Source: Hyperoplus lanceolatus
Lineage: Eukaryota > Chordata > Actinopteri > Uranoscopiformes > Ammodytidae
DNA length: 64,000 nt
Assembly: GCA_026929865.2 (NCBI GenBank)
Contig: CM049400.1
Coordinates: forward strand, 28,133,501 to 28,197,500
Direction of reading: 5' to 3'
Of this stretch, positions 16,616 through 49,938 are shown piece by piece. Made by a program: the position numbers and the translations under genes. Below the pieces are notes generated by a model, which saw only the letters and a list, made by a program, of their open reading frames with translations, was not told where the DNA came from and searched no databases. The first letter of the stretch is position 1. Every line of letters begins with the position of its first letter.

Positions 16616-17158
16616 CTATCCCCATTGCTCTGTACTCAGCTGCTTGGAGACGTACTGACAGAAACACACCCCTCCCTCCAGGTGACCGGTGGAGCTGGGC
16701 TGGGGAAAGGGAAAGTCTCTTTTAGCAAGGCAGCAGGCGTATCCTGGTGAGAAGTAGATCAGAGCTCTTTGGAACATATCCTCAGCTTCAGCCAACTCAG
16801 AGAAGGTTTCTGCAAACTCACGTTTGCAACCGTCCAGAGAAACATACACCAGATAGATTTTTGAATTCGACCGGCAGCCCATTAACACTTTCTCTACAGA
16901 GAGCATTGTGTTTGCCATGCCGACAGCTTTCTGCATCTCCCTTACAATGTACTTCTCATCATCGTTCTTCCAGAGACTAATCTGAATAAGCAAACCCAAT
17001 GGAACACAGTATATACTGGAAATAAAAAGTATCCAAATTATTATAGGGGCAACACTAATATCTATGAACACAATTAAGTATGTAGAAAATGCTATTTCTG
17101 ACAAAATAAAGAAGGCACCAGTGATATAGATGAGAACTCTAACCCAGAGAGGGCGCAG
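16616..17158 (-). pseudogene. Gene A, membrane and C-terminal part beyond a premature TAG
   Basis: This is the continuation of gene A in exactly the same reading frame after the TAG at 17159-17161. It encodes, without further interruption, the two predicted membrane helices and the C-terminal domain (motifs WKNDDEKYIVRE, KIYLVYVSLDGC, YFSPGYACCLAKR) and ends at the family's usual C-terminus STEQWG. It can only be translated through stop-codon readthrough, or if the TAG is an assembly error or a polymorphism. The uninterrupted 180 codons show that the nonsense change is recent or tolerated. Confidence 0.75.
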
Positions 17159-17879
17159 CTAGACTTTATTTTTAGAGACATTGTTGATCATCCTCACAGC
17201 CTCTTTGTACTTCTCGTGGTCCTCAATGATCAGGCGAAGTTGGTCTGGGACCTCCGTCTCACTGAACCGACCACAATCCCATTTACAGAGTCCCTCATCA
17301 TTGACAGCAGTCAAAGGCTGAAGGGCCTTCCCGTTGTAGATGGAGGGAGGCTGGAAGGGCACCACAGTGGAGCCTTGAAGCTGCTGGTTGGGGGTGCAGA
17401 GCACCTTGAGCAGCTTATTCATGAAGTCTGGGTCGTTGGCCTCCAGGTAGGTGAGGTGGCAGAGGTGGAGAGGAACAGAGACTCCTGGCTCCAGCAGCAC
17501 TGGGACGATGGGCGTCCTCTCCAGGCAATCTCTGAACAAAGACATGTTGGCCTCCAGGAGACACCAGCGGCTCCTCACAAACTCTGGGCTGAGAACCAGC
17601 AGAACCTTCTGGCTCTCCTGGATGCAGTCGGACATGTTCTCCAACACGGTGCGGCCGGGGGTGAAGTCACGCTCATGGTAGCAGACCTGCAGGCCGGAGG
17701 ACTCCAGCTGCTTGATGATGGAGTGGGTCCACTGGTAGTCAGTGCTGCTGTAGCTAATGAAGACATGGTAACACTCACCATCTCTCAGTGTGGGAGGATC
17801 ATGAACAGTGGGAGACAGCGAGACAGTAGGCTGAAAGTCTGCAGTCTGCACTTCAAGGACTCCATTATCTATGACACAA
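17159..17879 (-). CDS. Gene A exon 2: TIR-domain protein truncated before the membrane helices
   Basis: Minus strand. Exon 2 begins at 17879 after a polypyrimidine tract and CTTACAG, and joins exon 1 (ATG at 19678-19676) in frame, so the N-terminus reads MTSCVIDNGVLEVQTADF. The ATG that could start exon 2 in genes B and D is ATA here, so A depends on the exon-1 start. A complete TLR-like TIR domain follows (box 1 YHVFISYSS, BB loop RDFTPGR, WCLLE motif). Next comes the linker KALQPLTAVNDEG...VSKNKV, then TAG where B and D have TGG (Trp). As read, the product is a soluble, roughly 240-residue TIR-only protein that could act as a decoy or be a dying copy. Intron 1 is 17880-19670. Confidence 0.6.
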
Positions 17880-18041
17880 CTGTAAGTGAGAAAGAAAATA
17901 TAATGAAGTATTGAAGGGATCTTTCATAAACAGTTCACATAGACATGTTTTTAATGTTAGTACTATAGATCCAAGAGTCATTCAAAAAATCCCAGACAAG
18001 CCCCCAAATATGTAACGTCCCGATGGGGATCAGAGAGTAAG

Positions 18042-18543
18042 GCCCGGTCCACAAATCCACGTCTGGAGCGGGTCTGCATCTGTTACTGCTACGTCTCTCT
18101 TTCTGTTGTCGGCCACCCATCCAGCGTCACAACTGCTGGAGCGCTGATCTAAAAGCCCTGTCTTTCTACTTAGAGTTTTCCTTTAGTATTCCCATTCATA
18201 TGAAGATGTGTCATGTAATGTTATGAAACATATGGTTAAAATTAAGTTTCGACAGAAATCCGTGTGCTTCATTGCCTTTAAAAAGAAAAATCTTCACATT
18301 TGCGCTTGTGGGAATTTTTATTTTGTAAGAGACACACCAGGCAATGGTGAATTAATAGTGAATGCTGCTGGTAAGAAGTCAATTTGACTGTCACCAGAGT
18401 TTTTCTCTATCAGTAAAAGCGGAGAGCCGTTAGAAATGCACGTCTCACCGGAAAAATAGATGAGCCTCCTGAGGTGAAGTGGAGCATTGCCCCAGACGCG
18501 CCTCCAACGGGCGTCGGCAGAGCATCAGTGGTTGCCCGGGCCT
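18042..18543. mobile_element. Dispersed repeat in gene A intron 1
   Basis: The ends are imperfect inverted copies (TAAGGCCCGGTCC on the left and TTAGGCCCGGGCA on the right, reverse-complemented). Most of its body recurs at about 25500-25945 in the matching position of gene C and, more diverged, at about 55100-55460 outside the cluster. The copy outside shows it is a mobile repeat and not gene sequence. The frame at 18445-18870 on the minus strand lies partly in it and is not coding. Confidence 0.55.
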
Positions 18544-18715
18544 AACAGTTGATGTTGAATGGATATAAGGATGAATGGGAGAAAGCTGTTTAAAATACTT
18601 CAGACTCAACTCAACCACCCAAAGGGAGAGAGGAAGTCTCTGGCTCTCCTCCTGAGTGATTGAGTTACTCAACACACCTGTGCTCACTGAATTAGTGGCA
18701 AAGAAAGCAAAAACC

Positions 18716-18880
18716 TTAGCCTGGAAATCCAGACCCTGATATATTGAACGATAGAGGGTCTGGCCATGATCAATAGTAATTCCCAACTCAAGGGGCGGCT
18801 CATACTCGTGCATTTCAAATGCCACTGCACGCAATTGGATAGCACTACAACCAATCAGAGCAATGAACAAGGTGACGTAT
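18716..18880. repeat. Repeat beginning AGCCTGGAAATCCAGACCCT
   Basis: This contains a stem-loop (CAGACCCT ... AGGGTCTGG around 18731-18763). A truncated copy occurs at 27628-27681 on the C-D side of the cluster. The sequence resembles dispersed teleost short repeats. I infer a non-autonomous transposon but cannot fix its ends. Confidence 0.4.
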
Positions 18881-19274
18881 TAAGTTCCGTTCATTTAGCG
18901 AACAGCGGGGTAACTGTTTAGACTTTTGCCGTGGTCGGTCGGTGACCTTATGTATAACCATATCCAAAATCTTAAACCAGTGATAATACATTACTCACTG
19001 CAGAAAACTCAGTATCAAACAATGCAGTAATGCTCCAAATACACAATGGGTAGTAAGTTTGTATATACATATGTATAGTTCTAATATCATAAGATAAGGT
19101 ACATAGTTATTCAGAGTTATAGGCCTACATTTCTGTAATGTATAAAGAAATCCAAATTTGACATAACAGACTCAAAGGTGGAGTCAGCGATGCTGTGAAA
19201 CTCTCTTTTTGTTCAAATCAGTGGATATCTCCTAATGGACGTCTACATGTCTGTACTGTGTGGAGGCAGAACAC

Positions 19275-19397
19275 AATCCAGTGTTAATACACAGGCCCAG
19301 GCTGTGCAAACAGGCATGCTGCCAACTACAGTCTGTTTACAAACCTTTTGTTGACAAACCAGTTTACAGAGCATGCGCTGTGTATTAACACTGGATT
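19275..19397. repeat. 20-bp perfect inverted repeat in gene A intron 1
   Basis: AATCCAGTGTTAATACACAG at 19275-19294 is the exact reverse complement of 19378-19397, with 83 bases between them. It lies about 275 bp inside intron 1 of gene A and could form a hairpin in the pre-mRNA. It has no counterpart that I can see in genes B or D. Confidence 0.7.
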
Positions 19398-19670
19398 TTC
19401 TTTTTCCGCACACACAAAGTACATACAGGTAGCAGATTGTGAGGAGATATTCACTGATTTTGCCAAAAATAAATTTTGCCAATACGTTTTCCCCAGAGTT
19501 GCTGATGCCACATATAACTGAAAAATTAAAATGAAATCACTCTTAGACCCGTACGCTTTTAAACCTACACTCATTTAGGTGAAAACAACAACCACAGTGT
19601 CCGTCTTTTCTTTTTAATAATCAAAACTTAGCATTCTAGAAAAACAACAAATAGTAATGTTTATTCATAC

Positions 19671-19766
19671 CTGGTCATGATAAAGAAACAGTTAATCCAA
19701 GGATACACAACGAAGAGTCATCACACTGCGTGGATGACAGAAGTGAAACTTTATTCAGGAAGAGGA
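19671..19766 (-). other. Gene A exon 1 (start codon) and upstream block
   Basis: The exon ends at 19671 with ATGACCAG followed by the donor GTATGAAT. The ATG is at 19678-19676 with A at -3, and two in-frame TGA codons lie 12-13 codons upstream of it. The same block, with the same donor, precedes genes B and D and the D' remnant. The transcription start cannot be read; an AATAAAG motif about 70-80 bp upstream of the ATG could serve as an A/T box. Confidence 0.65.
19741..19748 (+). promoter_or_regulatory. IRF-type site AAGTGAAA near gene A exon 1
   Basis: AAGTGAAA matches the core bound by interferon regulatory factors (the PRDI-type half of an ISRE). It sits in the conserved block just upstream of gene A's start exon and is exact also before remnant D' (32373-32380). 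In B and D the same position reads AAGTAAAA. Function is inferred from position and motif only. Confidence 0.35.
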
Positions 19767-20224
19767 AACCAAAAAGTTAGCCGTCCTGTTTTTAGGTATG
19801 TTAAACAAATAGCTTTATCCCTGATGTCAAAAAGGCTTCTAAGATGAATAATGGAGCTGTGCCATTAATAACTCTCAGTGGCTCCTAATAATCCAGATAT
19901 GCTCAAAGGCTGGGGTTCTTCACTGCTTAAGAGTTATATTATTTACAGAAGTGTTTGCAACCAAGTGTCTTATGTTTAACCTTGGTGTTATCTGTTCTTC
20001 ACCAGGATAACTGGGTTTATATTCAGGAGATTGCGATACTGGCTCTCAGAGTATGTCACTCTTCACCCTGATTACAGTAACCTGGGATTCGACTCATCTA
20101 ATTCACTCCCTCATAATCAAACACCTTGTTTGTGATTAAATGCATTTAATGCATGTAAGTGACAGTGGAATCAGCAAGAAAAGTATCAAACTAAAACATA
20201 TATCAAGCAATGTTATTTGTTTAA

Positions 20225-20797
20225 AGAGGACCTATTATACTACTTTTCTGGTCTTAATTTCTTGTTTTACACTGCTATAGAGCAACCTGACACGAATCAC
20301 ATCACAAAAAACTATGTAGATTTTCGGGAAGCTCTTTCTCTTATTTTGGCGATCCAGCATGCACTGTAAACACTTTGCTTTTGACATTTCCGCCCCTCCC
20401 CTCCCTTCCTGAAAACACAACTTCGTTGTGATTGGTTACCTTCCTTCCGGAACACTTTCAGTGGCGGGAGGTGCGAGCATGGACCTATAAGGGCGCGAGG
20501 CAGACGCGAGTAGGAAATTGGCAGCATTACCATACATGGAAACATCCGCGTGGTGACGACACCAAGTTACACGCGACGTCACGAAGTTACAAAGCGTCAA
20601 GCCGCTTTGAACACGTGACTTCTCGATTGGCTAGAATAGTGTCTCGTGCTCTGCACAGACACCCCAGACGGTAAGCAGGGAACACGTCGAAATGCATGTA
20701 CGTCATTATTTGATAATCTAGTATGGTTAAACATGACTATAAATCATCATAACAACGTTTATAGGTCATAAAAGTCAAAAAATATCATAGGTCCGCT
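20225..20797. mobile_element. 573-bp piggyBac-like MITE downstream of gene B
   Basis: Inverted ends are AGAGGACCTATTATACTA and, reverse-complemented from the right, AGCGGACCTATGATATTT. TTAA flanks both sides (20221-20224, 20798-20801). The matching flank of gene D at 28939-28942 has one TTAA and no insertion (an empty site), proving insertion after duplication. It has no open frame for a transposase. The family also occurs at 25992-26960. Confidence 0.85.
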
Positions 20798-20966
20798 TTA
20801 AGTACAATTATTTAAAAGTGCAAATTTAAAATCCTTTCATTCTGTCTTTGTTTTGTTCCTTCTTGATGTGGACAAAACATGTGGACACTGAAAGAAAGAC
20901 ACAGGGACCTATAGGGGATGATTCCCAGATGCAGAATGTAAATTAATCTGCAGGTCCACACTGTCA

Positions 20967-22251
20967 CTATCCCCATTTCTCTGTACTCAGCTGCTGGGAG
21001 ACGTACTGACAGAAACACACCCCTCCCTCCAGGTGATCAGTGGAGCTGGGCTGGGCAAAGGGAAAGTGTCTTTTAGCAAGGCAGCAGGCGTATCCTGGTG
21101 AGAAGTAGATCAGAGCTCTTTGGAACATATCCTCAGCTCCAGCCAGCTGAGAGAAGGTTTCTGAAAACTCCTGTTTGCAACCGTCCAGAGAAACATACAC
21201 CAGATAGATTTTTGAATTGGACTGACAGCCCATTAACACTTTGTCTTCAGAGAGGATTGTGTTTGCCTGGCCGACAGCTTTCAGCAACTCCCTCACAATG
21301 TACTTCTCATCATCGTTCTTCCAGAGACTAATCTGAATGATCAAACCCAATGGAACACAGTAGAAACTGAACATTAAAAGCCCCCATATTATAATAGGGG
21401 TATTGCCGTCTTTGTAGGGCCAGGCTTCAGGACCAAAACTAAAAATAATTTCCAAAGAAAATCCTATCAGGGTTGTAAAAAACAAGATACCTGTAATATA
21501 GATGAGAACTCTCATCCAGAGGGGACGCAGCCACACTTTATTTTTAGAGACATTGTTGATCATCCTCACAGCCTCTTTGTACTTCTCGTGGTCCTCAATG
21601 ATCAGGCGAAGTTGGTCTGGGACCTCCATCTCACTGAACCGACCACAATCCCATTTACAGAGTCCCTCATCATTGACAGCAGTCAAAGGCTGAAGGGCCT
21701 TCCCGTTGTAGATGGAGGGAGGCTGGAAGGGCACCACAGTGGAGCCTTGAAGCTGCCAGTTGGGGGTACAGAGCACCTTGAGCAGCTTATTCATGAAGTC
21801 TGGGTCGTTGGCCTCCAGGTAGGTGAGGTGGCAGAGGTGGAGAGGAACAGAGACTCCTGGCTCCAGCAGCACTGGGACGATGGGCGTCCTCTCCAGGCAA
21901 TCTCTGAACAAAGACATGTTGGCCTCCAGGAGACACCAGCGGCTCCTCACAAACTCTGGGCTGAGAACCAGCAGAACCTTCTGGCTCTCCTGGATGCAGT
22001 CGGACATGTTCTCCAACACGGTGCGGCCGGGGGTGAAGTCACGCTCATGGTAGCAGACCTGCAGGCCGGAGGACTCCAGCTGCTTGATGATGGAGTGGGT
22101 CCACTGGTAGTCAGTGCTGCTGTAGCTAATGAAGACATGGTAACACTCACCATCTCTCAGTGTGGAAGGAACATGAACAGAGGGAGAGAGTGATACAGCA
22201 GGCTGAATGTCAGCAGTCTGCACTTCAAGGACTACATTATCCATGACAAAA
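20967..22251 (-). CDS. Gene B exon 2: intact TIR, two-helix, TMEM268-like protein
   Basis: Minus strand; joins exon 1 (22771-22778, ATG ACC AG) across a 519-bp intron (acceptor CTCTTACAG, donor GTATGCAT) for 430 codons. An in-frame ATG at 22244 is a possible second start. Residues about 39-170 form a TLR-type TIR domain: box 1 YHVFISYSS at 40-48, BB loop RDFTPG at 73-78, WCLLE at 108-112. A linker to about 245 is followed by helix 1 (251-273), a short loop, helix 2 (287-310), then a cytosolic domain (311-430) with KVLMGC and KIYLVYVSLDGC. There is no signal peptide, so the TIR and the C-terminus should both face the cytosol. Role: probable innate immune signalling or its modulation (inferred from TIR). 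The helix pair and C-terminal domain resemble TMEM268/DUF4481 from memory. I do not know an established name. Confidence 0.88.
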
Positions 22252-22770
22252 CTGTAAGAGAAAAAGAAAATATAATTTAGGAGTTCAGGAATCTTTTATT
22301 AACAGTTAATGAAGCAATGTTTTAATGCTAATAGGTCCAACTGTCATAAAAAACACATTTTGAGGTCATCTTACTGCTTATTGATCACACTGCTCAGCAT
22401 AAATCACAAGTCCATTCAGGTTTGGATATGATGTGAAAAAAAAAACTTTCCTCCAAATAATCAACTAGAAAAACAATGACAACGGTGAATTAGGCCATAA
22501 GTTACCTTCAAATTGATATATTGTTGTTTCAGAGCTTTGTGTTTTGAGGTATCATAGAAGCTGAATGTATATGCCCCTGAATATTTTGAAAAACTCATAT
22601 TATCTATTATCTAAGAGAAACATGAAATGTCGACATATCACACTTGAATGAAAAATGCACACCACCTACATTGATCTTTGCTGTAAACCACACCAACCAC
22701 AGCTTCCTACTGCACATTAAATTATTTGTAACTAATCACCCAAACAACATATAGTTATGTACATGCATAC

Positions 22771-22868
22771 CTGGTCATGATAAAGTAACAGTTAATCCAG
22801 CGATATACAACAAAGAGTGATCACACTGTGTGGGTGATCTAGAAGTAAAACTTTATTCAGGAAGAAGA
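22771..22868 (-). other. Gene B exon 1 (start codon) and upstream block
   Basis: The exon ends at 22771 with ATGACCAG|GTATGCAT (ATG at 22778-22776). An in-frame TGA lies 15 codons upstream, and no other in-frame ATG intervenes. The block is nearly identical to that of gene D. The IRF-like position reads AAGTAAAA (22843-22850), one base from the motif in gene A. Confidence 0.7.
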
Positions 22869-23164
22869 AATAAAAAAAACATAGGTTGTGTTTTCAGGTT
22901 TGTTAAAGGAACAGCCTCAGTCCTAATGTCTGAAGAGCTTCTAACATGAATAACGGAGCTGTGCCTTTAAAAAATTCTCAGTGGCTCCTATCAGTCCAAA
23001 CATGTTGAAAGGGTGGAATTTTTCACTGCGTAAGAGTTCTATTATTTACAGGAACTATTTAGAATAAAACAAATATAGAGTATACAATATGTTTTTCAGA
23101 GGCGGACAAGTACATTTTCTGTGCAGTTAATTTAAGAAAAAAATCATATACTCTTTATTTTACT

Positions 23165-23210
23165 CTCCTCATCTCAGCTGCTGGCAGACACACTCACAGA
23201 AACACACACC
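23165..23210 (-). pseudogene. Remnant B': last codons of another TIR gene copy
   Basis: A short match to the C-terminal end of the family (CVCFCECVCQQL, compare CFCQYVSQQLS in gene B). It lies directly upstream of gene B's duplicated block and is cut off by the homopolymer-rich sequence that follows. Confidence 0.6.
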
Positions 23211-24480
23211 CCCCCCCAACAATCCCCCCCCCCCTTTTTTTTCCCCCCCCCCCCCCCCCCCCCCCCCCCTTAACAAAAAAAACCCTATCCTACAAAAAAA
23301 AACCCCTAAATTTACACCCCCCCCCCCCCCACAAAAGACACCCCCCCTCACCCCCGGGCCCCAAAAATTTTAAAACCCTTTTAAATCCACCCCCCCCAAA
23401 ATAAAAAATATTTTTAAGGCCCCCTCCTCTCTCTCTCATAAGTAGAATAAATTCAATCAAAAAATTCCCCCCAAACCCCATATCTATTCCAACCCCCCAT
23501 CTTTCTCCCCAAATCCTTTTTTCAGGCCCTTACTCTTTAATATAAATTATATTTAATAAACACCTCTTAAGAAACATTTCTACCAAAAAAACAGCATGGC
23601 CCCCCTAATTCAATCCCCCGTAACAGGAGAGGGTTAGCATCTTATTCCTCTCCCCCCCCCTCCTTTTGAATTTTGGAATCAGAATTTTTCCTTTTCAGCC
23701 CAATTCACACCCATTTTTTTTCTCCCCCACCGGGGGAGGTTGCACTCAAAATCTGGCATAAAAAAGGCTTAAAATGATGTGATTTATTTATTAATATCTA
23801 TTTCTACTTTTTCCCAATTGACAAAACATTTTGACAAAGACAAATTTTTCCATTTCTGCAACAGCAAAAGTTATTCCCCAATTCCCTTATAAACCCCAGC
23901 CAATCATTTATTTGTTCTCTTAAACCACATTAAAACTCAATTTCTTTTCACTATTAAAAACCCCCTTCACTTAGACTAGTCCCATATAAAACAGCGTAGA
24001 CACAAAACACTCTTTCACATACTGTTTCCCACCTTCTTTCTCATCTTTTTAAACAAATTTTTAAAAATCTCCCCCTCAAATTAACCGAACTTTCTAATTT
24101 TATGAAAATAGTATAAACCCCCCCCCGATGACATAATGGCATGTATGAATTTAGAGAAAAACGTTACACAACCCAGGGTTCTGAGAATAAATTTGACCGA
24201 ATTGGCGCCCCCCCTTTTTAAATTTATTAAAAAAAAAAAATAAAATAGAAAAACTACCCCCCCCTTTTTTTTTAATTCTTTAATTTGATTTAATTTTATT
24301 TCTTTAGTTTTTTTTTTTTTTTTCATATTAATTTTTATTTTTTTTTGTAGGGTATATTTTGTGCTGTTGGGGAGGGGGGGGGGTGGGGTATGTTCGGGGG
24401 GGAAAAATTTGAACTAATGTGCACAATTTCTTTGTTACGAACATTTAATAAAAAAACCTTTGAAAGAAGAAACACACACC
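23205..24480. other. Homopolymer-rich, G-depleted stretch; possible assembly fault over a retroelement tail
   Basis: From 23205 to about 24320 the plus strand is almost all A, C and T with many C-runs and A-runs. It then turns T- and G-rich (24330-24420). The last part (about 24260-24475) matches 51820-52025, sharing TGTTCGGG, TTCGTTAC-like and AACATTTAATAAAAAAACCTTTGA, which looks like the 3' tail of a non-LTR retrotransposon. The rest could be a badly called retroelement and gene sequence. No coding call is made. Confidence 0.6.
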
Positions 24481-24660
24481 CATCCCTGGAATGATTTAAA
24501 ATGGGGAAATTCAAATCCTTTCCTCCTGTCTTTGTTGTTTCTCTTCTTGATTTGGAAAAAAAGATGTGGACACTGACAGAAAAAAACAGGGACCTACTAT
24601 AGGGGATGATTCTGAGATGCAGAACTTCATTTAGTAAACTGCAGGTCCACACTCTCTCTG

Positions 24661-25369
24661 CTATCCCCATTGATCTGTATTCAGCTGATGGCAGACATAC
24701 TGACAGAAACAATCAGTGGAGCTGGGCTGGGGAAAGGGAAAGTCTCTTTTAGCAAGGCAGCAGGCGTATCCTGGTGAGAAGTAGATCAGAGCTCTTTGAA
24801 ACATATCCTCAGCTTCTGCCAGCTCAGAAAATGTTTCTGCAAACTCACGTTTTGCAACCGTCCACAGAAACATACACCAGATAGATTTTTGAATTAGACT
24901 GGAAGCCCATTAACACCTTATCCTCAGAGAGCATTGTGTTTGCCTGGCCGACAGCTTTCTGCATCTCCCTCACTATGTACTTCTCATCATCGTTCTTCCA
25001 GAGACTAATCTGAATAATCAAACCCAATGGAACACAAAAGGAAACACAACTGGAAATAAAAAGTATCAAAATTATTATAGCGGCAGAATGGTCGTTATAG
25101 GGCCATGAGTATGTAATAATACTTATAAACACAGCTGTATGTAGAAAATGCTGTCACTGACATAATAAGGAAGAAACCTGTGATATAGATCAGAACTCTA
25201 ACCCAGAGGGCACGCAGCCACACTTTATTTTTGGAGACATTGTTGATCATCCTCACAGCCTCTTTGTACTTCTCGTGGTCCTCAATGATCAGGCGAAGTT
25301 GGAGACAATAAGAAAGCAGGCTGAATGTCTGCAGTCTGCACTTCAAGGACTCCATGATCTATGACACAA
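24661..25369 (-). pseudogene. Gene C: TIR-less, frameshifted copy
   Basis: Minus strand. Exon 2 starts at 25369 behind CTTAAAG. It keeps the first ~20 codons (..VLEVQTADIQPA) and then jumps at about 25300-25305 straight to QLRLIIEDHEKYKEAVRM. About 570 bp are gone relative to gene B, i.e. the complete TIR domain. The deletion shifts the frame, although an ATG at 25355 in the other frame would restore reading into the linker. Further frameshifts occur near 25110 (after helix 1) and near 24860 (before FAETFSELAEAEDMF), and the HLEGGV segment near the end is missing. It corresponds to gene A in the duplicated A-B unit. Non-functional as a TIR protein. Confidence 0.85.
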
Positions 25370-25991
25370 CTTTAAGTGAGAAAGAAAATATAATCTTTAA
25401 TAAACCATGTTTTTAATGTTAGTAATATAGATCCAGGAGTCATTAAAAAAATCCCGGACAAGCCCCCAAATATGTAAAGTCCCGATGGGGATCAGAGAGT
25501 AAGGCCCGCGGGCCACACATACTGCATCTGTTACTGCTGCGTCTGTCTCTCTGTTGTCGGCCACACATCCAGCGTCTCAACTGCTGCAGCGCTGCTCTAA
25601 AAGCCCTGTCTTTCTACTTAGAGTTTTCCTTTAGCATTCCCATTCATATAAAGATGTGTCATGTCATTTTATTATACATATGGATATGGTTAATACAGTA
25701 TTAAGTTTCGACAGAAATCCGTGTGCTTCATTGCCTTTAAAAAATAAATACAATTCTCCAATTTTCTCAACTTAACTGTCACCAGAGTATTTCTCAATCA
25801 GTTAAAGCAGAGAGAGCCGGAGAAACGCGCGCCTCGCCAGAAAAATAGACGAGCCTCCTGAGGTGAAGTGGAGCATTGCCGCAGACGCAACTCCAACGGG
25901 CGTCGGCAGAGCATCAGCGGTTGTATGTGTAGCCCAGGCCTAACAGTGGATGTTGAATGGATATAAGGACAAATGGGAGAAAATTGTTTAA

Positions 25992-26960
25992 CGTGGACCT
26001 ATTATACTTTTTCAACTTTTATGACCTATAAACGTTGTTATAATGATTTATAGTCATATTTAACCATACTAAAGTATCAAATAATGACTTACATGCATTT
26101 AGACGTATTCCCTGCTGACCGTCTGGGGTTGCTGTGCAGAGCGCTAAACACTAGGGCAGCCGGTCGAGAATTCACTTGTTCAAATCGGTTCAAATTTCCT
26201 GCAATCGTGTCGTCACGATTCCGGATTTTTCAATGTATGGTAATGCTGCAACGTGCTGGTGCGCACCGGCCATGCCCCCACCTGCCTGCTCAAATCTGCC
26301 CGCGCGCTGCTGAAAGTGTTCCGGAAGGTCCGATCACAGCCTCCGGTCCCTGGACTTCATCTCATTTGCCATCCCGTCAGTCCGTACTGAACTGGGCAAG
26401 AAGGCATTTTCCTACGCTGCGCCTGCAACCTGGAACAAGCTCCAGCAGAGGCTGAAGCTGTCCAGTTTTATTTCTTTAGGGGATTTTAGACTGCTAGTAG
26501 GAAGGCTGTTGAGACAGTCCGTGGGGGTCTGCACTTGTACATAACTTAACTTGTTCTTTGCCCTTTGTACTGCGTTATTTTACCGTTTGTGTTCTGTGTT
26601 GTGTCTCCTGTATGTTTAGTTAGTCTGTAACTTTGTGTTGCTGCTGATGCCTACCTGAACAGGTCTCTCTTGTAAATGAGACCCTGGGTCTCAATGAGAT
26701 TTTACCTGTATAAATAAAGGTTAATAAAATAAAAAAGGAAGCTAACCAATCACAACGGAGTGGGGTTTGCAGGAGGGGGGGAGGGGCGTAGATGGCCGAA
26801 GCGCAGTGTTGACTGAGCATGCTGAATCGCCCAGATGAGAGGAATGATGAGAGTTTCCCGAAAATCTACATGGTTTTTTGTGATGTGATTCGTGTGAGGT
26901 TGCTCTATAGCAGTTTTTAACAAGAAATTAAGAGCAGAAAAGTAGTATAATAGGAGATCT
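25992..26960. mobile_element. 969-bp piggyBac-like MITE (carrying a nested LINE) upstream of gene C
   Basis: The ends are CGTGGACCTATTATACTT and, reverse-complemented from the right, AGATCTCCTATTATACTACT, of the same family as 20225-20797 but in the opposite orientation. TTAA flanks it (25988-25991, 26961-26964). The matching point in gene A intron 1 (near 18593, GTTTAAAATACTTCAG) is an empty site. Confidence 0.82.
26320..26745 (+). mobile_element. 3' fragment of a non-LTR retrotransposon (LINE)
   Basis: Plus strand. Codons from about 26322 to 26542 read D-H-S-L-R-S-L-D-F-I-S-F-A-I-P, then TELGKKAFSYAAPATWNKLQ, and end at TAA. This is the typical C-terminus of teleost LINE reverse-transcriptase ORFs. 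A 3' UTR follows with GAGACCCTGGGTCTCAATGAG and a terminal AATAAAGG...AATAAAATAAA tail. GGAAG flanks both ends as a probable target duplication. It is inserted into the MITE 25992-26960 and is 5'-truncated. Confidence 0.8.
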
Positions 26961-27420
26961 TTAAAATACTTCAGACTCAACTCAACCACCCACAGGATGG
27001 GATGCTGCCAAATGGCAAAAAGGGAGAAAGGAAGTCTCCAGCTGTCCTCCTGGTTGTATGCTGCTTCCAGAGGCAAAGCTGATTGGGCACACCTGTGAGT
27101 GATCGAATTACTCAACACACCTGTGCTCACTGAATTAGTGGCAAAGAAAGCAAAAACCTGAGAAATGGCGGAGGAGGAGAGAACAGCAAACGCACACAAA
27201 ACCCATGTTGAACACACATCTGATGTCCTCCTACTGCTCAGTAATCATGCTGCTTAGTATAACTCATACGTACATTCAGGTTTGGATATGATGTAAGGTA
27301 CAGCAAAACACAGAGAAGGCGTTGTGCCGTTAAGAACTGCTCTACTGATTTAAGGGATTATTCTGACATGCAGAATGTCACATTATGGAAAAAGTTATCT
27401 GCAGGTCCACACTTTAACAG

Positions 27421-27617
27421 CTTTCCCCATTGCTCTGTTCTCAGCTGCTGGGAGACATAGAAGAAGATCAGAGCTCTTTTAAAAAAACATATCCTCAACA
27501 TCAACAAGCTCAGAAAAGGTTTCTGCAAACTCATGTTTGCAACTGTCCAGAGAAACATACACCAGATAGATGTTTCAATAGGACAGACAGCCCATTAACA
27601 CTTTCTCTTCAGAGAAC
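27421..27617 (-). pseudogene. Remnant C': truncated C-terminal exon piece
   Basis: Minus strand. It matches the family's C-terminal coding region (IYLVYVSLDSC-like, then FAETFSEL and QLSTEQWG equivalents), but with an internal deletion of about 110 bp and frame changes. It ends abruptly at 27617 against the AGCCTGGAAATCC repeat. Not translatable as a family member. Confidence 0.75.
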
Positions 27618-27784
27618 CAATCAACTAGCCTGGAAATCCAGACCCTGATATATTGAACGATACAGGGTCTAGCCACGATCAGAGTATGTCACTCTTCACC
27701 CTGATTACAGTAACCTGGGATTCGACTCATCTACTTCACTCCCTCATAATCAAACACCTTGTTTGTGATTAAATGCATTTAATG

Positions 27785-28861
27785 CAGGGCTGTACAGTGC
27801 GACAGTTTTGATCGCATTTGCTACTAAAATTGATTACGTGCGATGATGAATACAAGTCCACTCGCACTAGTGCGACAGCTTGCTAATGAGTAGATGCTGT
27901 CTCTTTGAAACACAGAGGTGCGCTGCACAACACTGCTTAAAGGGCTCTACATTAACACTCTCCAAGTGCGGGTAAATATAGTCTTCTTAGGCAAGTAAGT
28001 TATTGAGTCCACCCGCTACTTTGGCTGGTGAAAGATGTGTGCTTTGGATCTGTGCTTGTGCAGCGGTTCTAGCGTCTAATCAATTTCCCCAACGGCAATA
28101 ACCGGAAGGAGACGGCTCTTAACATTAACACAGTTAAGTTAGCGCGTGTGCAAACAGAACATTTCCTGTGCACCTTCACATTAAAAGCCTGTTACTAGCC
28201 AAACATTAGTTGACTTTTATTTTGAAGCCGGTAAGAACAGGAAGTTAGCGTTTGACAGCCCTGCAGTGCTCTAGCAACAAAGGCAACTCATTCAGATGCA
28301 GAGAGCACAACACAGTAGTCTATTTAAACAAATACTCCCAACACATTCACAACAACCTATTTAATTTATCCTAAATTGTACCAATATGTATACTTATTTA
28401 TTTAATAGGCTATGTTTCATGTTTTAACTGTTTAAAGTTTGGTTTTAATTAACAGATGGATATTTTCTAAAAAAAAATATTATTATTAATATATATGTAA
28501 GAGGCTACAAAAATATATATAGATATAGATATTATTTTTATATTTTTATGGAAAGAAATAATTCTGAATCAGCAAAAAATTGCAATTGGCAGGTTGGATT
28601 ATTTTGTCTAAATTGCAATCAGTGCACCCCTATTTATTGTTCTACAATTATTACTGCACACCCTAGGATATAATATTAATTGAGAATCTCAAATGAGACC
28701 AAGATGACATGCTCAATGGTAATTAGAGCGAAATGCAAGGGTTAAGGTTATGAAAGTTTTCGATCATACTTTGTGTGCTACCGAATTTATTTTTGTGCTA
28801 CTGATTTTTTTTGCTTGCTAGCACCAGTGCTACCACCTAAAAAAATAAGCATACAGCCCTG
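27785..28861. mobile_element. 1077-bp hAT-like non-autonomous transposon
   Basis: Its ends are CAGGGCTGTA and TACAGCCCTG (inverted). The 8-bp duplication ATTTAATG is present on both sides (27777-27784 and 28862-28869). The matching site near 20145 downstream of gene B has a single ATTTAATG and no insert. An 8-bp duplication with CAGGG-type ends is characteristic of the hAT superfamily. No transposase frame is visible. Confidence 0.85.
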
Positions 28862-29107
28862 ATTTAATGCATGTAAGTGACAGTGGAATCAGCAAGAAAA
28901 GTATCAAACTAAAACATATATCAAGCAATGTTATTTGTTTAAGTACAATTATTTAAAAGTGCAAATTTAAAATCCTTTTATTCTGTCTTTGTTGTGTCCC
29001 TTCTTGATGTGGACAAAACATGTGGACACTGAAAGAAAGACACAGGGACCTATAGGGGATGATTCCCAGATGCAGAATGTAAATTAATCTGCAGGTCCAC
29101 ACTGTAA

Positions 29108-30383
29108 CTATCCCCATTGCGCTGTATTCAGCTTCTGGGTGACATACTGACAGAAACAAACTCCTCTCTCCAGGTGACCGGTGGAGCTGGGCTGGGGAAA
29201 GGGAAAGTCTCTTTTAGCAAGGCAGCAGGCGTATCCTGGTGAGAAGTAGATCAGAGCTCTTTGGAACATATCCTCAGCTTCAGCCAGCTCAGAGAAGGTT
29301 TCTGCAAACTCACGTTTGCAACCGTCCAGAGAAACATACACCAGATAGATTTTTGAATTGGACTGACAGCCCATTAACACTTTCTCTCCAAAGAGCATTG
29401 TGTTTGCCTGGCCGACAGCTTTCAGCAACTCCCTCACGATGTACTTCTCATCATCTTTCTTCCAGAGACTAATCTGAATAATCAAACCCAATGGAACAAA
29501 GTAGAAACTGGAACAAGGAGGCACCCACATTGTTAAAGGGGTATTGTCAATATAAATGGGCCAAGCTATAGAAAAAAAAACAAACATAGAAAATATTATC
29601 ATGGATAAAAAAAAGATGACGCCAATAAAGTAAATCAGAACTCTAATCCAGAGAGGGCGAAACCAGACATTATTTTTAGAGACATTGTTGATCATCCTCA
29701 CAGCCTCTTTGTACTTCTCGTGGTCCTCAATGATCAGGCGAAGTTGGTCTGGGACCTCCGTCTCACTGAACCGACCACAATCCCATTTATAGAGTCCCTC
29801 ATCATTGACAGCAGTCAAAGGCTGAAGGGCCTTCCCGTTGTAGATGGAGGGAGGCTGGAAGGGCACCACAGTGGAGCCTTGAAGCTGCCGGTTGGGGGTA
29901 CAGAGCACCTTGAGCAGCTTATTCATGAAGTCTGGGTCGTTGGCCTCCAGGTAGGTGAGGTGGCAGAGGTGGAGAGGAACAGAGACTCCTGGCTCCAGCA
30001 GCACTGGGACGATGGGCGTCCTCTCCAGGCAATCTCTGAACAAAGACATGTTGGCCTCCAGGAGACACCAGCGGCTCCTCACAAACTCTGGGCTGAGAAC
30101 CAGCAGAACCTTCTGGCTCTCCTGGATGCAGTCGGACATGTTCTCCAACACGGTGCGGCCGGGGGTGAAGTCACGCTCATGGTAGCAGACCTGCAGGCCG
30201 CAGGACTCCAGCTGCTTGATGATGGAGTGGGTCCACTGGTAGTCATTGCTGCTGTAGCTAATGAAGACATGGTAACACTCACCATCTCTCAGTGTGGGAG
30301 GAACATGAACAGAGGGAGACAGTGATACAGCAGGCTGAATGTCAGCAGTCTGCACTTCAAGGACTACATTATCCATGACAAAA
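29108..30383 (-). CDS. Gene D exon 2: intact TIR, two-helix, TMEM268-like protein
   Basis: Minus strand; joins exon 1 (30900-30907) across a 516-bp intron for 427 codons; second possible ATG at 30376. The TIR domain differs from gene B at few positions (YSSNDY, ESCGLQ); box 1, the RDFTPGR loop and WCLLE are kept. Helix 1 region (VLIYFIGVIFFLSMIIFSMF) and the loop and start of helix 2 (PLTMWVPPCSSFYFVPLGL) are quite different from B. The C-terminal domain is again close to A and B (SELAEAEDMF, YFSPGYACCLAKRDF) and ends NTAQWG. It is the duplicate of gene B, 8.14 kb away. The predicted product is a membrane-anchored cytosolic TIR protein; function is inferred from the domain only. Confidence 0.88.
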
Positions 30384-30899
30384 CTGTAAGAGAAAAAGAA
30401 AATATAATTTAGGAGTTCAGGAATCTTTTATTAACAGTTAATGATGCAATGTTTTAATGCTAATAGGTCCAACTGTCATAAAAACACATTTTGAGGTCAT
30501 CTTACTGCTTATTGATCACGCTGCTCAGCATAAATCACAAGTCCATTCAGGTTTGGATATTATGTGAAAAGAAAAACTTTACACTAAATAATCAACTAGA
30601 AAAACAATGACAACGGTGAATTAGGACATAAGTTACCTTCAAATTGATATATTGTTGTTTCAGAGCTTTGTGTTTTGAGGTATCATAGAAGCTGAATGTA
30701 TATGCCCCTGAATATTTTGAAAAACTCATATTATCTATTATCTAAGAGAAACATGAAACGTCGACATATCACACTTGAATGAAAAATGCACACCACCTAC
30801 ATTGATCTTTGCTGTAAACCACACCAACCAGCTTCCTACTGCACATTAAATTATTTTTAACTAATCACCCAAACAACATATAGTTATGTACATGCATAC

Positions 30900-30997
30900 C
30901 TGGTCATGATAAAGTAACAGTTAATCCAGCGATATACAACAAAGAGTGATCACACTGTGTGGGTGATCTAGAAGTAAAACTTTATTCAGGAAGAAGA
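30900..30997 (-). other. Gene D exon 1 (start codon) and upstream block
   Basis: ATG at 30907-30905, donor after 30900 (ATGACCAG|GTATGCAT). Almost identical to gene B exon 1, including the AAGTAAAA variant of the IRF-like site at 30972-30979. Confidence 0.7.
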
Positions 30998-31287
30998 AAT
31001 AAAAAAAACATAGGTTGTGTTTTCAGGTTTGTTAAAGGAACAGCCTCAGTCCTAATGTCTGAAGAGCTTCTAACATGAATAACGGAGCTGTGCCTTTAAA
31101 AAATTCTCAGTGGCTCCTATCAGTCCAAACATGTTGAAAGGGTGGAATTTTTCACTGCGTAAGAGTTCTATTATTTACAGGAACTATTTAGAATAAAACA
31201 AATATAGAGTATACAATAAGTTTTTCAGAGGCGGACAAGTACATTTTCTGTGCAGTTAATTTAAGAAAAAAATCATATACTCTTTGA

Positions 31288-31345
31288 GGCAGCAGGCATA
31301 ACATCTGCAGTCTGTACTTCAAGGACTCCATTTTCTATGACAAAA
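31288..31345 (-). pseudogene. Remnant D': first codons of exon 2 of another copy
   Basis: Minus strand. Behind an acceptor-like tract (TTCTCACATAG) the sequence TTTTGTCATAGAAAATGGAG continues as VLEVQTAD-like codons (VLEVQTADVMPAA), then stops at the border of the gene D block. The remainder of exon 2 is deleted. Its exon 1 is preserved at 32301-32308. Confidence 0.75.
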
Positions 31346-32300
31346 CTATGTGAGAAAGAAAATATAATTTAGGAATGTAGGAATCTTTGATAAACAGTTC
31401 ACATAGCCATGTTTTTAATGTTAGTATAGATCAAAGACTCATTAAAAACACATTTTGAGGTCATCCTATTGATCAGTGATCACGCTGAAATCTTTTGAGG
31501 TGTTTTATAATCTGAATGTATATGCCACTGAAGATTTAGAAAAACTGATATTACCTCATTTCAATTCATAAGAGGTGTCATCATTACTTATCTGATCAAC
31601 CATCAGCATGCTGCTTAGAAAATTAAAATGCATGGGTTTTGAATGACCAAAAAGTATCCGTCTCAAAAAAGCACACAATTCTTATAGGTAATGTCACATA
31701 AAAGGCTCCTTTTCCAATGCGTGGTTGTTTACTCATCATGAAAAGTCAAATGCTGACATGCAAAAACACTTATACTTTGTTCCTCTATTTCTGACCCTCA
31801 GTAGTAGATTTGTATCTTGTTTGCTCAAATACTTCAATTATTCGAAACAAAGGATTCTCAAACAAGCTTCGGTCTGTGGCAAACATGAGCTATGTCTCTA
31901 AAAAGGTGACAACATACTACACAATAGTCTGTGAAATCAAACATAGTAAAGATTTCAAATCTACTTCAAGTATAACCATATCAAAAATATAAAATCTGTG
32001 ATGGCACATTACTCAATGTAAAAACAGTTTTCAATCAATACAGTGCTGATCCTAATAAGTGGATAGTGTGTTTGTGTATGAAGAAATATAGTTGTAATAT
32101 CATGAGCTAAAGTACAAGGTTTCTGAGGGGTATTCTTTTCCATGATGTAGAGAAACATGAAAGGTGAACATATCACACTTGAAGGAAAAATACACCCCAA
32201 CTAGACTGATCTTTGCTACAAACAACACCGACCACAGTGTCCTACAGCAATTTTTTTTTAAGGAAAACTAATCACACAAACAAAACATGTACATGCATAC

Positions 32301-32398
32301 CTGGTCATGATAAAGTAACAGTAAATCCAATGATATACAACAGAGAGTGAGCACACTGGATGGGTGATCTAGAAGTGAAACTTTATTCAGGAAGAGGA
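32301..32398 (-). other. Orphan exon 1 and upstream block of remnant D'
   Basis: An intact copy of the family start exon (ATG at 32308-32306; ATGACCAG|GTATGCAT) with its upstream block, but now followed only by the 31288-31345 stub. If transcribed, it could splice onward to the acceptor of gene D exon 2 and so act as an extra promoter for gene D (inference). Confidence 0.6.
32373..32380 (+). promoter_or_regulatory. IRF-type site AAGTGAAA in orphan upstream block
   Basis: The same motif and position as 19741-19748 in gene A, in the context AGAAGTGAAACTTTATTCAG. Assignment rests on motif and conservation alone. Confidence 0.35.
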
Positions 32399-33420
32399 TT
32401 TTCTTTTTTTTAACTCTGTTGTCAGGTTTGTTAAAGGGACAGCCTCAGTCCCTGATGTCTGAAGGGCTTCTAACATTACTAACGGAGCTGTGCCTTTAAC
32501 CCCTTCAGACCCTGCGTCCATTGGAATGGACATGACATATTTCTTTCTCTTTTTTTTTTTCCAATGCTCTTTTTTTTTCTCTCTAAACCAATAAATACTA
32601 ATTGGATGATGTCAGCACTGCTGGTTACTGATTGGATCCTGATTATCCAATCAAAATCATGTAATGACTTTGAGCATGCTCTGAGAGAGTGACAGACATC
32701 TGACAAGACAAGTATGGCAGAGCCGATCCAGAGAGGGAAGAGTAACTGCCCATTTTCAATCTAAAATCTACATTTATGTTCATGCTAGCCAAACAAACGT
32801 GCTCTCAGTGTAATTTCAACTATTACAAGTGATAATATTTTAAGTTATTTTGAACATATGTCACGTAATTAATTTGTAGGATTTTTTCAAAGTCCGATGT
32901 CCATTGCAATGGACATCAGGAGTCGGGCGAATAACCTTTTTAAAGGTTCATTAGCCTACTATAAAAAGCATGGTTATGTGTTGGAAGTACCATGATCGTT
33001 TACTGAAGGCAAAACTGATTTCTTTTTTACGTCATGTTATCTTCAATCCTACATATTGTCTTGCATGTGCATGTTCAGACCGCGTCATAGCATTTCCCTC
33101 TCATCTAGTAGGCACTGGGCTTTCCTGGTGACCTCACTGCTGTTGCCTACCCTCGCTGTGATACACCTATCAAGTTGATGTGCATGTTCAGAAACTTACA
33201 CAGACTCAAAAACATCCAGTTCCAGATGTTTAGTAGTAGTAGTAAGTAGTAAAAAAAAATATTTTCAGTCCATGACCACAAGACACAACACAAACAAGAT
33301 AAACAACTTTCCTTAAAAGCATCAATGGCCGAAAAAGGGTATAGGATGAAGCCGAGGCTTATTATGCCTACCCTCTTTACATACTGCTATAAAACAATAA
33401 TACAATGTATCACAAAAACA

Positions 33421-33615
33421 AAATATAACATAACATAACATAATACAATACAATACAATACAATACAATACAATACAATACAATACAATACAATACAATA
33501 CAACATAACACAAACATAATACAATCAACACAATACACTATACCATAATATAATATAATATAACATAATACAATACAATGCAATATAATATACTATAATA
33601 TAATACAATATAATA
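33421..33615. repeat. (ATACA)n-type microsatellite
   Basis: About 20 tandem ATACA-type units, degenerating on both sides to ATAAC and ATATA variants, inside the 32500-34755 element. Confidence 0.9.
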
Positions 33616-34030
33616 TTTGAGAAAAAGCAAAGCAAAAAAACAAAAACAAAACAAAAAAACAAAAAAAACAAAGCAATAGCCTAAAAATATAAAACAACGC
33701 AACTTATAGTTTAGTTGTAGTTAAGTTATTATAATGAATTACACAGTTATAGTTTGATTATACTTATACATTACTATATACTTTCCATACATTCTATTCC
33801 ATATTTCATAGTGCACAGTGTTACCATATAAATATATATCAACATTTTACTGGGGACTCCCTCTATATGCAAGTGCAATACATTTCCTTGTATTGATTTC
33901 CACAGTTAGTTTGATTATAGTTAGTTAGTATTATTACGTTTAGAGTTATTGAAAAAAAGAAGAAGATCCAGAAGAAGAAAAGAAAAACAACTACAAATAA
34001 ACAAAAACAAAAGGAAGCAACAAAAAAAAC

Positions 34031-34483
34031 GGTAACACTTTATAATAACTATCCGTTTAACTGTTATAGATCATTATAAACTCTTAATTAATATTATTAA
34101 TATTTGTTAGGTTTGTTAAGATTTATAACAATGGTAGATAGTTAATAGCTTAATAATTGAATCATTCATCTGGGAGGTAATCCGAGATACCGCGAGCTGA
34201 AATAGGTATAGACTATACACAGTCATGGGCAACTGAGGGCAGACCCATTTTCAATATTTTTAAATAAACTCAATACACACTGTGCATGCCATGGACTTGA
34301 ACGACGTGATCAATTAATCTCGGATTACCTCCCAGATGAACTGATTCAATTATAAATATTAACTATCTACCATTTTATAAATCCTTAACAAACTCTAACA
34401 ACACTTAACAAATCATTAATAATCATTAATTAGAGTTTCTAATATCTATTAACAAGTTACAATGATAGTTATTATAAAGGTAC
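34031..34483. mobile_element. Nested MITE with long inverted ends
   Basis: The ends read GGTAACACTTTATAATAACT on the left and, reverse-complemented, GGTACCTTTATAATAACTATC-like on the right. Inner inverted segments (CATCTGGGAGGTAATCCGAG near 34166 and its complement near 34321) make the element largely foldable. It lies within the piggyBac-like element. Confidence 0.75.
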
Positions 34484-34885
34484 CCAAAAAACAAAAAATA
34501 TAAGTATATATACACATTTCCTCCATACACATGTTTAGGCCATACCTGAGGACATATATGTCTTTTATTTTTAATGTTTTTATGGCATGTTACGTGCATC
34601 GTGTCCTGGCGTCCATTGGAATGGACATGAAAAAAGACTCATAAAAACATGAGTTTGAAAAAAAAAAATATCCACTCTGTTTTTATGTTGAAGAGTAGTC
34701 TGAATCAGTTAAAAAAAATTATTTGCCCAGCAGAAAAAATGCGGGTCTGAAGGGGTTAATAACTCCTATTTATTTCAACCTTTATTTATACTCAGTCTGT
34801 CATTGTGGAGTGAATATTTACAACAAAGTCAAGTCAAACAAAACGATGCAAAGTTAAAACAGCACAAAAAGTATTCAAAGTAAAA

Positions 34886-34960
34886 GCTGCTGGGAGACAC
34901 ACTGACAGAATCACACACCCCTCCAGCTCAACAGCTGAGCTGTGCTGGGGGAAATGGGAA
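34886..34960 (-). pseudogene. Remnant: C-terminal codons of a further copy
   Basis: It matches the end of the family's coding region (the CAGCTGCTGGGAGAC...CTGACAGAA...CACACCCCTCC pattern and an AGCTCAACAGCTGAGCTG stretch) but is isolated and degenerate. It is followed by intergenic sequence homologous to that between genes A and B. Confidence 0.55.
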
Positions 34961-35394
34961 ATATTTTGAGTTTAGCTCTAGTTTTACTGTTATCTGTTCT
35001 AGACCAATATGAATGTGTTTTTTTTTTCCAGGAGATTGCCCTGCTTGCTCTAAGTGCACTGTGATCATTTACCCTGATTTATGCTTGGGTTCTACTCATT
35101 TCTCTCTCCCTCAGATTCAAACACCTTGTTTATGATGAAATGCATTTATTTGATGAGAGTACCAGTTTAATCAGCAAGACAATTATCAAACTCAAACATA
35201 TTACAAGCAATGTTATTTGTTAAAGTACAATTATTTAAAAGTGCAAATTTAATATCCCTTCATCTTGTCTGTGTTGTGTCCCTTCTTGATGTGGACAAAA
35301 CATGTGGACACTGAACGACAGACACAGGGACCTATAGGGGATGATCCTGAGTTGCAGAATGTAATTCAGTAATCTGCAGGTCCACGCTGTCTCT

Positions 35395-35562
35395 GCTATC
35401 CCCATTGCTCTGTACTCAGCTGCTGGGTGACATACTGACAGAAACAAACCCCTCCCTCCAGGTGACCAGTGGAGCTGGGCTGGGGAAAGGGAAAGTCTCT
35501 TTTTAGCAAGGCAGCAGGCGTATCCTGGTGAGAAGTAGATCAGAGCTCTTTGGAACATATCC
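35395..35562 (-). pseudogene. Gene E, out-of-frame remains of the C-terminus
   Basis: This matches the family's last ~55 codons but is out of frame with the upstream part. A 2-bp deletion near 35570 (GCTTCCCAGC against GCTTCAGCCAGC in gene D) and an extra T near 35503 (CTTTTTAGC) break the frame twice. The conserved EAEDMFQRALIYFSPGYACC block is readable only in the intermediate frame. Confidence 0.75.
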
Positions 35563-36624
35563 TCAGCTTCCCAGCTCAGAGAAGGTTTCTGCAAACTCGC
35601 GTTTGCAACCGTCCAGAGAAACATACACCAGATAGATTTTTGAATTGGACTGACAGCCCATTAACACTTTGTCTTCAGAGAGGATTGTGTTTGCCTGGCT
35701 AACAGCTTTCTGCATCTCCCTCACAATGTATTTCATCACATCTTTTTCCCAGATACCAGTCTCAATAATCAAACCCAAAAGAACACAGGAGAGACAAAAA
35801 AGAGTAAGCCCACAGAGAGCTGTATTCTTCTTCTCGCCTTCTATTAAATATGATATTAACGGTGCGGAAAGAGCTATCGTAAAGAGAATAAATATTACAG
35901 CAGTACAGGCCATCAGTGCTACAGACCAGGTAGAGTACACTTTATTTTTAGAGACATTGTTGATCATCCTCACAGCCTCTTTGTACTTCTCGTGGTCCTC
36001 AATGATCAGGCAAAGTTGGTCTGGGACCTCCGTCTCACTGAACCGACCACAATCCCATTTATTGAGTCCCTCATCATTGACAGCAGTCAAAGGCTGAAGG
36101 GCTTTCCCGTTGTAGATGGAGGGAGGCTGGAAGGGCACCACAGTGGAGCCTTGAAGCAGCTGGTTGGGGGTGCAGAGCACCTTGAGCAGCTTATTCATGA
36201 AGTCTGGGTCGTTGGCCTCCAGGTAGGTGAGGTGGCAGAGGTGGAGAGGAACAGAGACTCCTGGCTCCAGCAGCACTGGGACGATGGGCGTCCTCTCCAG
36301 GCAATCTCTGAACAAAGACATGTTGGCCTCCAGGAGACACCAGCGGCTCCTCACAAACTCTGGGCTGAGAACCAGCAGAACCTTCTGGCTCTCCTGGATG
36401 CAGTCGGACATGTTTTCCAACACGGTGCGGCCGGGGGTGAAGTCACGCTCATGGTAGCAGACCTGCAGGCCGGAGGACTCCAGTTGCTTGATGATGGAGT
36501 GGGTCCACTGGTAGTCAGTGCTGCTGTAGCTAATGAAGACATGGTAACACTCACCATCTCTCAGTGTGGGAGGAACATGAACAGCCCCAATGTCTGCAGT
36601 CTCAGGTGAATACAATGCCATTAT
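35563..36624 (-). CDS. Gene E: divergent TIR, two-helix protein with shortened C-terminus
   Basis: Minus strand. Start ATG at 36621 (MALYSPETADIGAVHVPP). A splice acceptor TTCTATTTAG lies 3 bases upstream, with an in-frame TAG within it, so this is the first usable ATG of the exon. The TIR domain is nearly identical to the others (YHVFISYSSTDY, RDFTPGR, WCLLE). The membrane part is the most divergent (helix 1 about VALMACTAVIFILFTIALSA, helix 2 about ALCGLTLFCLSCVLLGLI, preceded by a charged loop EGEKKN). The C-terminal domain is kept to FAETFSEL and then ends at GS-stop after a frameshift, about 60 residues early; 352 codons. It could be functional with a truncated tail or be an early pseudogene. 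A possible upstream exon ends near 36721 (TTTTAG|GTAAAT). Confidence 0.7.
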   Translation of the reverse strand: MMALYSPETADIGAVHVPPTLRDGECYHVFISYSSTDYQWTHSIIKQLESSGLQVCYHERDFTPGRTVLENMSDCIQESQKVLLVLSPEFVRSRWCLLEANMSLFRDCLERTPIVPVLLEPGVSVPLHLCHLTYLEANDPDFMNKLLKVLCTPNQLLQGSTVVPFQPPSIYNGKALQPLTAVNDEGLNKWDCGRFSETEVPDQLCLIIEDHEKYKEAVRMINNVSKNKVYSTWSVALMACTAVIFILFTIALSAPLISYLIEGEKKNTALCGLTLFCLSCVLLGLIIETGIWEKDVMKYIVREMQKAVSQANTILSEDKVLMGCQSNSKIYLVYVSLDGCKREFAETFSELGS

Positions 36625-48521: not shown

Positions 48522-48898
48522 ACGGAGCCCCTAAAAGGACATGGAGGAAAAAAAATTTTGGTTCAGAAAAAAAAAAAAAAAACGGAGGAAAAAAAATGTT
48601 GGTTGAAAAAAAAATCAAACTCGAGATTCTCGACTTTAAACTCGAGAATCTCGACTTTGCCTTCAAACCTCACTCACCGTCACCAATGGTCCATGCATCA
48701 AAGGCATATCAATTAATTTATGGGAAACCACACAACAGTGTCATGGAGGAGTACTTGGAGCATTCTCTCTCACACTAACACCAAACTACAACCTATTAGG
48801 CCTAAATCTAACGTTGATTATGCACATTGGAGAGAAAAGTGACAGTGCTTCACTTCATTTTGGCGCACCATGGACAGAGAGCGGAGGTCTAATTGTCA

Positions 48899-48933
<35 letters not shown>

Positions 48934-49903: not shown

Positions 49904-49938
<35 letters not shown>

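Follow-up and report, generated by a model that had tools for sequence, protein, structure and literature searches.

A cluster of TIR–TMEM268-like genes

The window analysed here is a 64,000-nucleotide stretch of the Hyperoplus lanceolatus genome (GCA_026929865.2, contig CM049400.1, positions 28,133,501 to 28,197,500), and coordinates given below without a contig name are positions within it. Between 16.6 and 36.6 kb lies a cluster of genes that join a TIR domain to a TMEM268-like module, mapped from stop-to-stop frames and tblastn as five bodies (A to E) plus fragments, all on the minus strand. The first-pass annotation had described five bodies and at least four fragments on this strand, each body built as TIR domain, linker, two hydrophobic helices and tail. 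The count and orientation stand; the full build is discernible in only four of the five bodies (A, B, C and E), D having no TIR. Only B (425 codons) and C (422 codons) are open throughout.

22771..22778, minus strand: predicted first coding exon of gene B, ATGACCAG then a gta donor, in frame with the main exon
20970..22244, minus strand: main coding exon of gene B, 425 codons, intact, supported by frames, Pfam, tblastn and profile comparison
21771-22148, minus strand: TIR of gene B
20988-21707, minus strand: TMEM268/DUF4481-like module of gene B
21309-21536, minus strand: two-helix hairpin of gene B
21345..21518, minus strand: codons 243-300 of gene B, the diverged core of its hairpin and an island of difference among copies that are otherwise near-identical
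30900..30907, minus strand: predicted first coding exon of gene C, ATGACCAG then gta
29111..30376, minus strand: main coding exon of gene C, 422 codons, intact, architecture as in B
19671..19678, minus strand: predicted first coding exon of gene A, ATGACCAG then gta
16619..17872, minus strand: gene A, architecture as in B and C, with a single in-frame TAG (17159-17161) between the linker and the first helix
24664..25362, minus strand: body D, an N-terminal remnant fused to linker, hairpin and tail, with the TIR deleted and the frame broken
35399..36603, minus strand: body E, TIR and linker intact, hairpin divergent, frameshift near 35566, 5' end unlike that of A to C

As it stands, gene A is predicted to encode a soluble product of TIR and linker. 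Upstream of the main exon, at about 0.5 kb in B and C and 1.8 kb in A, lies a conserved stretch that ends in ATGACCAG followed by gta, and the same stretch occurs at an orphan copy within the cluster. In A, B and C this predicted first exon, which codes for only about three residues, reads in frame into the main exon when joined to the acceptor; for B, with the acceptor read from the sequence, the predicted N-terminus is MTSFVMDN. An intact paralogue on C18 has a related upstream stretch (76% over 75 bases) that continues to ATGGACAG followed by gta some 2.5 kb upstream; read by eye, its acceptor phase equals that of A to C. The layout of ATG..AG/gta plus a main exon is therefore common to A, B, C and the C18 paralogue. 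Translation probably starts in exon 1, because A and the C9 and C18 copies lack the methionine of MDN and because A, B, C and C18 each have an in-frame exon 1; these are also the grounds on which the MDN methionine was set aside as a start.

The TIR domain and the TMEM268-like module

By sequence, the TIR identity is unambiguous and of the TLR1/2/6/15 kind, where TLR denotes Toll-like receptor. The families scored were PF13676 (TIR_2) and PF01582 (TIR). In the four TIR-bearing bodies (A, B, C and E) TIR_2 was matched at E values of 2.3e-21 to 4.8e-21 and TIR at 1.3e-15 to 1.8e-14, and the TIR_2 scores of these bodies and of the C18 paralogue (74.7-77.0 bits) lie above the curated cut-off of 28. 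The closest relatives in PDB were TLR15/TLR2-named, TLR1 and TLR6 chains (E 6e-22 to 6e-20), followed by weaker matches to a metazoan TIR-STING chain (6wt6) and to bacterial TIRs. NCBIfam gave only matches far below its cut-offs, including one to the TIR part of a retron-type model. The stretch RDFTPGR, which we take to be BB-loop-like, and what we take to be the WCxxE motif are both intact. No leucine-rich ectodomain, death domain or other signalling domain besides the TIR was matched by Pfam at E<=1 in the frames scanned.

The region after the TIR was compared with TMEM268 at several levels. DUF4481 (PF14800) was the best non-TIR Pfam family in four of the seven frames scanned, at 21.7 bits in A (E 1.4e-4), 19.3 bits in the tail of B (E 7.9e-4), 19.6 bits in that of C (E 6.4e-4) and 23.3 bits in the C9 copy (E 4.7e-5), set against a curated cut-off of 25 bits; the matches always fall around profile positions 141-185. 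For the human protein we used what we take to be its sequence. That sequence has 342 residues, a DUF4481 domain at 38-328 and hydrophobic segments at 104-126 and 130-152, in agreement with PMC6748091. Together with the local fish pieces it formed a two-row TMEM268 alignment, which was matched by hhalign to an alignment of six tails (B, C, E in part, C18, and A and C9 joined across their breaks) at 92.4% over 224 columns (E 5e-7 for a single comparison). The best of 200 column-shuffled decoys reached 4.2%, with a best decoy score of 25.2 against 53.0 for the real pair.

This match is collinear and places residues ~180-419 of B on TMEM268 39-331. It takes in the supposed linker, which the first-pass annotation had set apart and which is better described as the N-terminal portion of the TMEM268 domain. 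Human TMEM268 ranked first among 4002 sequences in hmmsearch, and each of 10 pairwise comparisons, a mutually overlapping set, scored higher than all of its 500 shuffles. Taken part by part, the scores of the last segment in B, C and A were equalled or beaten by 92, 2 and 14 of 2000 shuffles, respectively; for the linker of B against the N-part of TMEM268 this happened in 15 of 2000, and in 38 when the TIR was added. Two hydropathy peaks were present in all six copies tested (D left out). Judged by these comparisons, the post-TIR region, linker included, is nearly the whole TMEM268 (DUF4481) domain fused to a TIR. The fusion shares with TMEM268 a domain collinear from NGxxL to CxCQ, the two-helix hairpin and the VLxG...VYxxL..C motif. 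It differs in lacking about 62 TMEM268 residues ahead of the last segment, while Pfam found no TIR in the human sequence used. The human gene also has nine exons (PMC6748091), whereas here TIR and module share one main exon.

Two parts of the first-pass annotation, the TLR-type TIR and the TMEM268-like C-terminus, were thus upheld, the first by TIR_2 scores and the nearest PDB chains, the second by the hhalign match and the rank of DUF4481 among non-TIR families. The Pfam search it had suggested bore out the TIR (74.7-77.0 bits against 28) and fell short for DUF4481 (best 23.3 against 25). The result that it had named as refuting, a lack of any significant profile match with TMEM268, did not occur.

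Related copies, constraint and hairpin divergence

A search of the genome with protein B recovered the cluster on C6, the intact paralogue on C18 (C18:28405613-28406806, 67% identical to protein B) and a broken copy on C9 (C9:9402865-9404119). The local expansion proposed earlier holds as far as the cluster of five bodies goes; the family is not solely local, given the single copies on C18 and C9. Among the 20 TIR_2 matches in the 807-Mb assembly, the six TIR-bearing fusion copies were the top six, and the frames next nearest to protein B (42% and 39% identity) look by eye like leucine-rich Toll-like receptors. At C19:1182407-1685367 there are five short TIR_2 matches, each some 42 residues long and apparently outside the fusion family.

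The genome also holds an ordinary multi-exon TMEM268. It was the one locus found with PF14800 (C19:9850550-9853069), where the match is split into five pieces and one piece runs through a stop. Its multi-exon structure is not matched by the fusion, whose module lies in a single exon, and this suggests that the fusion derived via a spliced copy of TMEM268.

Constraint was estimated from the ratio of replacement to synonymous divergence (dN/dS). Between the C18 paralogue and A, B and C it is 0.42-0.43 for the TIR, 0.37-0.48 for the tail and 0.82-0.92 for the linker, values that support long-term constraint on TIR and tail. Between B and C the TIR shows zero synonymous and two replacement changes.

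Within the cluster, divergence is very uneven. For pairs of A, B and C, nucleotide identity is 99-100% in the TIR, 98% in the linker and 93-94% in the tail, and 71-74% in the hairpin; the TIR has no synonymous difference over ~84 sites, and dS is 0.08-0.12 in the tail and 0.40-0.52 in the hairpin. Hairpin identity is higher (85-89%) among A, the C9 copy and D. The introns of B and C are ~97% identical, and over 2089 aligned bases, intron and flanks included, mismatches fall at 49 of 165 positions in codons 243-300 and at 52 of 1924 elsewhere (Fisher p 6e-30, with the bounds of this island set after the profile was viewed).

Drift since duplication is an unlikely source of this contrast. Exchange with an older, diverged hairpin, or conversion that spares one, fits better than point selection, because dS is raised along with dN. 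Point-by-point positive selection on the hairpin was considered and is unsupported, dN/dS being 0.55-0.78 in the five computable pairs with dS high. A genome DNA search for a donor with the B and C hairpins returned only the known copies A, B, C, D and C9 and missed E and C18, so that it was not exhaustive; whole-hairpin matches were at 70-73%, and shorter pieces reached 100% over 39 bases. Most likely, the copies have been homogenised by gene conversion except in the hairpin, so that TIR and tail would be held alike and the hairpin, being spared, would remain copy-specific. It is conceivable, and we put it forward tentatively, that one TIR head is kept identical by conversion and that the hairpin is an exchangeable cassette through which each copy reaches a different membrane partner or compartment. 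A parallel is provided by TLR1 and TLR6 (PMC2077338), tandem paralogues in which gene conversion homogenises a region including most of the TIR and the transmembrane domain and other parts diverge. The fusion cluster is alike in being homogenised over the TIR with other parts diverged, and unlike in that its hairpin is left diverged.

The smaller pieces of the cluster are the following.

23173..23218, minus strand: short tail fragment, bordering low-complexity sequence
27211..27615, minus strand: fragments of a further copy, an intron piece and tail pieces
31290..32398 (31290-31556 and 32149-32398), minus strand: 5' remnant of a further copy, with an orphan first exon (ATG at 32308) and a main-exon start
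34885..34961, minus strand: short tail fragment

Beginning within the first of these tail fragments, positions 23200-24470 carry odd C-, A- and T-rich homopolymer runs and may be poor-quality assembly. Also within the cluster, the ends of 32496-34759 are TTAACCCCTTCAGACCC and its reverse complement, which by eye looks like a possible 2.3-kb DNA transposon. Elsewhere in the window, a near-perfect inverted repeat at 48617-50220 (arms of 560 nt, 98%) has the look of a fold-back element, with 21-base AAAGTCGAGATTCTCGAGTTT repeats within and beside it. A second inverted repeat lies at 55469-55901 (arms of 162 nt, 98%), and one 40-base tandem unit occurs at both 42586-42661 and 59577-59652, 17 kb apart.

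Possible function of the fusion

We propose that these genes form a small fish family in which a cytosolic TIR of TLR1/2 type is carried on a near-complete TMEM268 module and serves as a membrane-tethered adaptor or regulator, a reading that we hold at about an even chance and favour over a pure decoy. The order would be TIR at the N-terminus, then the TMEM268 N-part, the two-helix hairpin and the C-tail. Net positive charge ahead of helix 1 in all six copies tested (D left out) suggests that the N-side is cytosolic and, given two helices, that the tail is too; with both ends of the hairpin in the cytosol there would be no ectodomain. The TMEM268 part would position the protein at the plasma or endosomal membrane, perhaps by integrin tails as for TMEM268 itself. 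The TIR would enter homotypic contact with TLR1/2-type receptors or with MyD88/TIRAP, as far as we infer partners and direction of signalling, and a TLR-type contact surface would be brought next to integrin-type receptors.

TIRAP, TRAM and MyD88 are receptor-less TIR proteins that work at membranes. The fusion is predicted to be another of this kind, and differs from them in having no detected death domain and a TMEM268-type two-helix anchor in place of lipid binding or myristoylation. With TLR1, TLR2, TLR6 and TLR15 it shares the TIR sequence; unlike them it has no detected leucine-rich ectodomain, an N-terminal TIR and two helices instead of one. TIR-STING likewise joins a TIR to a second module, and a metazoan chain of this type, 6wt6, was one of those matched by the TIR; the partner module is a different one, and Pfam detected no STING domain in the fusion frames at E<=1.

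Several results weigh against the tethered fusion as we describe it. DUF4481 reached its cut-off in no copy, and three of the seven frames (E, D and C18) gave no DUF4481 match at E<=1. The joined local TMEM268 exon pieces ranked fourth of 4002 in hmmsearch, after two shuffled decoys. The hairpin alone gave no signal against human TMEM268, its score being equalled by 1595 (B) and 1256 (C) of 2000 shuffles, and a structure model of B (AlphaFold2 on alignment A2) was poor, with a pLDDT of 42. Beyond helix 2 the charge stays between -1 and +1 in five of the six copies, which leaves the positive-inside case one-sided. The sequence searched yielded no exon 1 for D, E or the C9 copy, and the overall dN/dS between B and C is 0.86, on few changes.

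The low or absent DUF4481 scores, the unalignable hairpin and the failure of the local pieces to outrank all decoys are also what favours an unrelated two-helix anchor whose TMEM268 likeness is due to chance or convergence. We regard this as highly improbable, since the profile match is collinear across nearly the whole of DUF4481 with no decoy close, and the pairwise scores exceed those of every shuffle. Almost as improbable is a TIR that cleaves NAD+ while tethered at the membrane, like SARM1 or TIR-STING: the glutamate of what we take to be WCxxE is present, and there are the weaker TIR-STING and bacterial matches and the sub-threshold retron-type one, but the sequence is closest to the TIR domains of TLRs, which are scaffolds.

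The cluster might instead be dying, what is left of a retrogene-like fusion that no longer has a function. Three of the five bodies are broken, fragments lie among them, the C9 copy is broken as well, and the B-C ratio points the same way; this is unlikely, however, as open frames persist in B, C and the C18 paralogue, dN/dS between contigs is 0.37-0.48 for TIR and tail, and the splice layout is conserved. A more serious possibility, though one that we rate below the adaptor or regulator, is a decoy, in which a membrane-held TIR with no death domain sequesters MyD88/TIRAP or the TIRs of receptors and thereby dampens signalling by TLRs, with A as a soluble version. It is consistent with the lack of Pfam matches to death, leucine-rich or other signalling domains and with a copy A that stops after TIR and linker; the motifs taken as BB-loop-like and WCxxE are intact, which makes active scaffolding just as possible.

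The first-pass annotation knew of no named gene with this architecture, and among the matches listed in the open-licence literature there was likewise no description of a TIR–TMEM268 fusion; unnamed database entries may well exist. In the available part of a TIR atlas preprint (PMC13142454) the words 'vertebrate', 'zebrafish' and 'Danio' do not occur. For TMEM268 itself, two papers (PMC11169502, PMC6748091) report that the mammalian protein binds CD11b via residues 1-152 and ITGB4 via 104-342 and that its loss promotes degradation of both, and the former recently linked it in mice to integrin CD11b and to host defence against infection. Proteins that become fused frequently cooperate; by that logic, the pairing of a TMEM268-like module with a TLR-type TIR in a natural gene hints that both serve one process. 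The hairpin pattern suggests that it is the membrane segment that selection or recombination keeps different, and with the fusion a connection of integrin handling to TLR signalling could be tested directly in fish cells.

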